From NCBI RefSeq assembly GCF_001475545.1, contig NZ_LDQC01000049.1, positions 1 to 64,000 on the forward strand: a DNA stretch of 64,000 nucleotides. Reading direction: 5' to 3'. The DNA comes from Curtobacterium luteum (GTDB lineage: Bacteria; Actinomycetota; Actinomycetes; Actinomycetales; Microbacteriaceae). A program made the position numbers and the translations under genes. The notes beneath the pieces are model-generated. The model had not been told where the DNA came from. It was given only the letters and a program-made list of their open reading frames with translations, and made no database searches. Shown piece after piece: positions 908-2,843 of the stretch (positions are counted from its first letter, which is position 1; each line of letters opens with the position of its first letter).

Positions 908-2713
<1,806 letters not shown>

Positions 2714-2730
2714 TCAGGCCACGACGGACT

Positions 2731-2769
2731 CCGCGACGAGGTGGGCCGTTGTGTCAGGCCTCGTCGCGG
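2731..2769 (-). promoter_or_regulatory. Attenuator stem in the leuA leader
   Basis: On the minus-strand RNA, CCGCGACGAGG (2769-2759) pairs perfectly over 11 bp with CCTCGTCGCGG (2741-2731), loop 17 nt. The 5' arm lies inside the last codons of the leader peptide, just after four leucine codons, so a ribosome stalled for lack of charged tRNA-Leu would cover it. A weaker 6-bp stem (2698-2703 with 2721-2726) lies between it and leuA. No T-tract is visible, so whether control is transcriptional or translational is open. Confidence 0.65.
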
Positions 2770-2798
2770 CAGCGAAGGAGGAGGAGCGCCGAGTACAT
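2754..2798 (-). CDS. leuA leader peptide
   Basis: A 14-residue ORF reads MYSALLLLRCRDEA. Codons 5-8 are CTC CTC CTC CTT, four leucines in a row. It ends 70 nt before the leuA ATG and overlaps the 11-bp attenuator stem. Leucine-run leader peptides before leuA are known in actinobacteria. The start probably coincides with the transcript end: TACGGT lies 7 nt upstream and there is no ribosome-binding site. The peptide itself probably has no function beyond sensing charged tRNA-Leu during translation. Confidence 0.75.
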   Translation of the reverse strand: MYSALLLLRCRDEA

Positions 2799-2805
2799 CA
2801 GGACC

Positions 2806-2811
2806 ACCGTA
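2806..2811 (-). promoter_or_regulatory. -10 element for the leuA leader transcript
   Basis: The hexamer TACGGT lies 7 nt before the leader ATG, placing the transcription start at or next to the A of ATG. A weak TTGCAC lies about 19 nt further up. A TGGT-GT-ACCA dyad overlaps the spacer and could be an operator; this is speculative. Confidence 0.45.
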
Positions 2812-2843
2812 GCACTGGTGTACCAACCGTGTGCAAGCAGCCT

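Follow-up and report, generated by a model that had tools for sequence, protein, structure and literature searches.

A derived LEU element upstream of leuA in Curtobacterium and its candidate role as a translational attenuator

Upstream of leuA in Curtobacterium luteum lies a short open reading frame (ORF) with a run of leucine codons, its end overlapping an inverted repeat, and the question raised by this locus is how such an arrangement might control the gene. A sequence-only reading of the window (the whole 64-kb stretch of DNA analyzed here) had proposed a leader ORF with four Leu codons whose 3′ codons take part in a perfect 11-bp stem, spanning 2731–2811, and both the features and the span are confirmed (Table 1). 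That reading left undecided whether transcription is stopped or ribosome binding is blocked; the sequence leans to the second, because no intrinsic terminator was found and because the 3′ arm of the stem is complementary to the leuA ribosome-binding region.

Table 1. Features of the leuA upstream region of C. luteum, in window coordinates
Feature	Position	Strand	Description	Basis
leuA	908..2683	minus	2-isopropylmalate synthase	NCBIfam NF002991 and TIGR00970, both above cut-off
Site B	2688..2694	minus	GCGACGA, 7-nt complement of P1 3′ arm, 4 nt before leuA ATG	duplex -13.0 kcal/mol
Weak Shine-Dalgarno	2694..2698	minus	GAAAG, best match to 16S tail	longest exact match
Site A	2697..2702	minus	CGACGA, complement of P1 3′ arm	exact-complement search
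Possible pseudoknot partner	2717..2720	minus	GGCC, 10 nt after P1	could pair with 2744..2747
Stem P1, 3′ arm	2731..2741	minus	CCTCGTCGCGG, also complementary to leuA ribosome-binding region	sequence, comparison, model
Possible pseudoknot strand	2744..2747	minus	GGCC, in P1 loop	other pairing best in part of genus
Leader ORF	2754..2798	minus	MYSALLLLRCRDEA and stop, probably leaderless	sequence; relatives keep in-frame start, Leu run, and stop position
Stem P1, 5′ arm	2759..2769	minus	CCGCGACGAGG, inside last codons of leader ORF; 11 bp, all Watson-Crick (2769-2759 with 2741-2731)	sequence; conservation
Leu codon run	2775..2786	minus	CTC CTC CTC CTT, four consecutive Leu codons	sequence
-10 hexamer	2806..2811	minus	TACGGT, 7 nt before leader ATG	sequence; TANNNT box conserved
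Possible weak -35	2831..2836	minus	TTGCAC, 19-nt spacer	by eye; consensus scan gave no promoter

The leader ORF and the P1 stem

The leader has 14 codons, from an ATG at 2798–2796 to a TGA at 2756–2754 (ATG TAC TCG GCG CTC CTC CTC CTT CGC TGC CGC GAC GAG GCC TGA). A TANNNT box lies 6–9 nt before an in-frame start in every one of the 179 upstream regions described below, and 6 or 7 nt before it in 165 of them, a count for which several candidate starts were tried, spacings of 3–10 nt were allowed, and no shuffled null was used. From this spacing the leader mRNA is probably leaderless, with the transcript start expected at or next to the leader ATG to judge by the placement of TACGGT, although a scan by consensus rules found no sigma-70-type promoter at the leader. 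The leaderless start proposed earlier thus gains support, both from the spacing and from LeuL1 of Streptomyces lividans (MRFGLLLLSCRGEGL), a homologous leader that is reported to be transcribed without a leader, and that is also alike in having no typical terminator and an SCRG-type end (PMC8079986, in the passages on this peptide). Two repeats lie nearby: a short GC-rich stretch at 2836–2883, between the leuA promoter region and an ORF ending at 2934, has 54 other matches elsewhere in this genome and is perhaps a terminator-like or mobile repeat, and past the 3′ end of leuA, at 580–761, there is a tandem array of 9.6 copies of a 19-base unit (87% matches).

Of 2000 dinucleotide shuffles of the 128-nt region, only 3 yield a stem of 11 perfect pairs closing a loop of 3–30 nt, and the window as a whole holds 13 clusters of such stems, P1 among them. 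The complete 145-nt leader folds no better than its shuffles (z = 0.13). When 30 nt of leuA are included, the minimum-energy fold contains a helix between the 3′ arm and the ribosome-binding site and lacks the 11-bp stem, whereas with 24 nt of leuA P1 dominates; because the dominant helix shifts over so small a change in length, the RNA looks near-balanced between the two. The earlier remark that there is no T-tract also holds, as a scan found no terminator-like site (no GC-rich hairpin with a U-tract), and a T-rich tail follows P1 in just 5 of the 179 upstream regions. Rfam models, including T-box and riboswitch families, gave no match at an E-value of 10 or below between 2500 and 3000; at five other loci there was one match to an Rfam family, at chance level and under its gathering score.

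The four nearest named leuA genes belong to Curtobacterium, at 94, 92, 92, and 86% identity, and the match coordinates of one equal those of genus member G163. The comparison with relatives draws on leuA matches in 57 of 59 genomes and, for a sample of the family, in 142 of 150, the C. luteum genome being counted in each. The 179 upstream regions come from the genus (38), other genera of the family (127), and the order (14), and they leave aside 7 of the 21 order genomes and 12 of the 139 other-genus family genomes with a leuA match, as well as second leuA-like matches in four genus genomes. The sequence-only reading had made its proposal depend on conservation of the Leu run and the stem in relatives, and both are kept: P1 is present in all 179 regions (171 with every one of its 10 core pairs, and eight with 9), and at least three consecutive Leu codons are found in 177, with two codons in the other two. 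The leader stop begins 3 nt past the 10-nt P1 5′ arm in 148 of the 179 regions, and all three stop codons are used (TAG in 79, TGA in 54, and TAA in 46).

The compensatory changes in the stem that had been suggested as a check are also seen. In an alignment of 55 diverse sequences there are 23 cells with changes on both sides of a P1 pair, compared with 7.7 in shuffles, and none of 500 shuffles reaches 23; the proportion of P1 cells that can pair is 96.0% versus 92.9%. Other measures separate less well: P1 pairs with a two-sided change number 4 versus 3.0 (42/500), further pair types show no excess (9 versus 9.2), and a control structure slid by -3 columns has a covariation score of 0.153, near the 0.166 of P1 itself. 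A covariance model built from the 55 sequences (R1) matches in 137 of 148 genomes of the class, with the proviso that the alignment includes the window, whose own match follows from how the model was built, and also part of the 148, and the element is by this comparison homologous to elements of other actinobacteria.

Relation to the LEU element and the leuA ribosome-binding site

Leifsonia xyli is a member of the Microbacteriaceae. It was among the genomes in which Seliverstov et al. (2005) described the LEU element of actinobacterial leuA, whose features are an ORF with a Leu run, a stem and pseudoknot, a base stem joining the Leu codons to the Shine-Dalgarno sequence of leuA, and no obvious terminator (PMC1262725). 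The LEU element is the precise precedent for the earlier, general statement that leucine-responsive leuA leaders are known in actinobacteria, and the Curtobacterium leader shares with it the position before leuA, the Leu-run leader ORF, the stem, and the lack of an obvious terminator. It differs in that the base stem is weak and the ribosome-binding site is instead exactly complementary, over short stretches, to the 3′ arm of P1. The leader descends from the LEU element and so is not a new kind of element, a basic Leu leader before leuA being already known, and we class it as a LEU variant rather than a member because its base stem of Leu run and Shine-Dalgarno sequence is no stronger than with shuffled sites.

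Two other systems invite comparison. Like leuL of Corynebacterium glutamicum and LeuL1 of S. lividans, the Curtobacterium leader places consecutive Leu codons ahead of leuA, but the passages concerned with those leaders speak of attenuation and describe no complement of the ribosome-binding site (PMC8079986, PMC4046766, PMC8709942). With transcription attenuators of the trp type it has in common a leader rich in the end-product residue and alternative pairing, and it is set apart from them by having no intrinsic terminator.

Duplex energies and ribosome positions were compared in the genus and family sequences, and the weakness of the base stem in the genus is evident from the first of these. 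Pairing of CTCCTCCTT with the leuA ribosome-binding region averages -10.8 kcal/mol in the family (41 of 127 sequences below a z of -2), whereas the duplex of Leu run and Shine-Dalgarno sequence is weak in the genus, at -4.6 kcal/mol in the window and -5.3 kcal/mol on average, with a mean z of +0.72 and none of 38 sequences below -2. The choice of Leu codons is narrow throughout the 179 leaders. CTT ends the run in 177 and CTC in two, and the two preceding positions hold CTC or CTT in 176 and 169 respectively, yet CTT accounts for none of 1273 Leu codons within 32 leuA genes of the genus and for 1.3% of 1271 in 27 genes of the family. Because CTT is kept in the leaders yet rare in leuA, the run seems to be maintained at the level of RNA or tRNA, beyond its coding for leucine. 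Pairing with the ribosome-binding region, as in the family and the published LEU element, is one reading of this, and decoding of CTC and CTT by a single tRNA isoacceptor would be the other.

The leuA gene of Curtobacterium has a poor Shine-Dalgarno sequence, the longest exact match to the 16S tail being 5 nt in all 38 genus members; a 16S end with CACCTCCTTTCT is present in the C. luteum genome. Close to the leuA start there are stretches exactly complementary to the P1 3′ arm, 6–9 nt long in the genus, and their position varies by species, upstream or downstream of GAAAG, with one on either side in the window. Within the 30 nt that precede leuA, a complement of at least 6 nt is present in 37 of the 38 genus members (9% with shuffling), 15 of 127 family members (6%), and none of 14 order members (7%), and for complements of at least 7 nt the corresponding figures are 26 of 38 (2%), 4 of 127 (1%), and none of 14. 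The genus members are closely related, and so the 37 are not independent events; the one exception (L037) has a complement of 5 nt. Duplex energy between the 3′ arm and the ribosome-binding site shows only a small contrast, at -12.7 kcal/mol in the genus and -11.8 kcal/mol in the family, with 7 of 38 and 36 of 127 sequences respectively beyond a z of -2 relative to shuffled sites. Because the energies hardly differ, imperfect pairing between the 3′ arm and the ribosome-binding site may be older than the genus. A further Curtobacterium, strain Leaf261 (L303, outside the 38), has no exact complement, and its Leu run pairs with CGAAGGA at -13.9 kcal/mol; this arrangement looks like the ancestral state, although it is possible that it is an intermediate.

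The pseudoknot is supported more weakly than the other parts of the element. In the window it would consist of GGCC paired with GGCC, 4 bp only. In the genus the pseudoknot score reaches 12 in all 38 members compared with 37% of shuffles, and 11 of the 38 prefer another pairing with another spacing. Outside the genus, loops score 12.26 against their own partners and 10.99 against permuted ones (sd 0.24, with a maximum of 11.54 in 300 permutations); if all distinct pairs are counted, a score of 11 or more is reached by 0.68 with their own partner and 0.63 with a swapped one, a small margin.

Candidate mechanisms

We consider it somewhat probable that this derived LEU element works as a translational attenuator of leuA. 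Shortage of leucyl-tRNA would stall the ribosome early in the Leu run, so that P1 could form ahead of it, occupying the 3′ arm and leaving leuA to be translated. With plentiful leucine the ribosome would reach the leader stop and cover the P1 5′ arm, and the freed 3′ arm (TCGTCGC) would pair with GCGACGA or CGACGA by the leuA start and block initiation.

Modeling of ribosome positions is consistent with this direction of control, although the differences are modest. In the model a stalled ribosome has its A-site at the last-but-one Leu codon, a ribosome at the stop masks the RNA there, and pseudoknots are not represented. With the ribosome at the stop P1 cannot form, and the expected pairs between the 3′ arm and the ribosome-binding site number 6.6 in the genus, 6.9 in the window, and 3.1 in the family, where 5.0 expected pairs with the site come from the Leu run. 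In 36 of the 38 genus members (48% when the sites are shuffled) and in 97 of 127 family members (55%), a stalled ribosome leaves the ribosome-binding site more open than a ribosome at the stop does. Mean openness in the genus is 0.51 stalled, 0.39 at the stop, and 0.42 with the RNA free of ribosomes, and mean P1 formation is 0.74 stalled and 0.92 ribosome-free; since the site is only 0.42 open in free RNA in which P1 is formed at 0.92, formation of P1 is not by itself enough to open it. For the window, openness is 0.53, 0.46, and 0.40 with the A-site at the second, third, and fourth Leu codons, 0.41 at the stop, and 0.42 in free RNA, and P1 formation falls from 0.91 through 0.39 to 0.00 over the same three codons, so that a ribosome stalled at the final Leu codon would not free P1. 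A first form of the model, which omitted L100, L123, L156, L164, and L177, showed no direction in the 14 order sequences, with openness at the stop lower in five and higher in four. The strongest published evidence against translational attenuation is the work on leuA leader mutants of Streptomyces coelicolor (Craster 1999), which, as cited in PMC1262725, behaved unlike classical attenuation.

The main competing explanation, which we regard as unlikely but deserving of weight, is transcription attenuation, probably Rho-dependent, in which translation of the leader would control early termination. The case for it comes from C. glutamicum, and is quoted here from the passages on leuL: attenuation there was predicted from transcripts (PMC4046766), a review terms it transcriptional (PMC8709942), and in a (p)ppGpp-null strain leuA and leuL RNA were up together at 5 min of total starvation (PMC6892785). 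The scan for terminator-like sites and the scarcity of T-rich tails after P1 argue against it in Curtobacterium, and termination does not need an exact complement of the ribosome-binding site. A decidedly improbable alternative is the one favored by Seliverstov et al., that a regulatory protein reads the pseudoknot and stem and the ORF is incidental (PMC1262725). It would account for the conservation of P1 past the needs of pairing, in that 3 of its 11 pairs never vary, for the better fit of loops outside the genus to their own pseudoknot partners, and for the mixed codons of most leuB leaders (see below); a protein site explains none of the in-frame start kept next to the -10 box, the stop position, or the Leu codons. 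Least probable of all is that the ancestral base stem is still active, with the Leu run and following codon pairing with the ribosome-binding site, as a ribosome-free model gives this stretch 3.8 expected pairs with the site (genus mean) but the window duplex is no better than with shuffled sites and far from the family mean.

Elements at other leu genes

How the LEU element works was left open in 2005, as regulatory codons, a pseudoknot, and a missing terminator fit no single model (PMC1262725). The apparent exchange of the strand that covers the ribosome-binding site, with leader and stem kept, lends itself to a direct test between translational attenuation and protein binding. We can put forward, tentatively and as something short of an even prospect, a broader proposal: that Curtobacterium replaced an ancestral switch in which Leu codons act as an anti-Shine-Dalgarno sequence, its ribosome-binding site having evolved copies of the P1 5′ arm so that a single strand switches between pairing with the final leader codons and pairing with the ribosome-binding site, and that LEU elements at large would in that case attenuate translation of leuA, leuC, and leuB across actinobacteria. 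For the leucine pathway PMC1262725 names only leuA, leuS, and ilvB, and a search of the open literature with loose terms, most subscription papers lying outside its coverage, gave no recognized description of leuB or leuC leaders. Elements before leuC and leuB would make LEU a pathway-wide signal.

R1 gave no match at an E-value of 1 or below upstream of leuC (taken as the best aconitase-family match) in nine other genus genomes, each assembled in one or two contigs. In C. luteum leuC starts at a contig edge, so that its upstream sequence is absent, and leuB follows directly on the end of a serA-like gene with no leader visible by eye. Candidates for a second element in this genome were set aside: below the match at leuA the ranked R1 matches begin at an E-value of 0.0115, and the next four (L189–L192) have no leu gene beside them by eye and look like chance.

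Elsewhere the element is found at other genes of the pathway. Among the family matches listed, 46 that are not at leuA were picked by hand, and 44 of these precede a same-strand leuC by 22–259 nt, the other two being in one fragmented genome. Inspection by eye of 20 sites from the family, order, and class placed four before leuC, seven before leuB (with two more likely), and seven before leuA, and a further 16 sites included 12 before leuA (with one more likely) and three before leuB. The leuC-linked loci among the sites fetched are L225, L226, L227, and L242, and those linked to leuB, in other actinobacteria, are L228, L229, L230, L231, L232, L239, L244, L289, L290, and L295; NCBIfam confirms two leuC and two leuB proteins, which are all of those tested. 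The leaders before leuB mostly carry a mixture of Val, Ile, and Leu codons in place of a Leu run.
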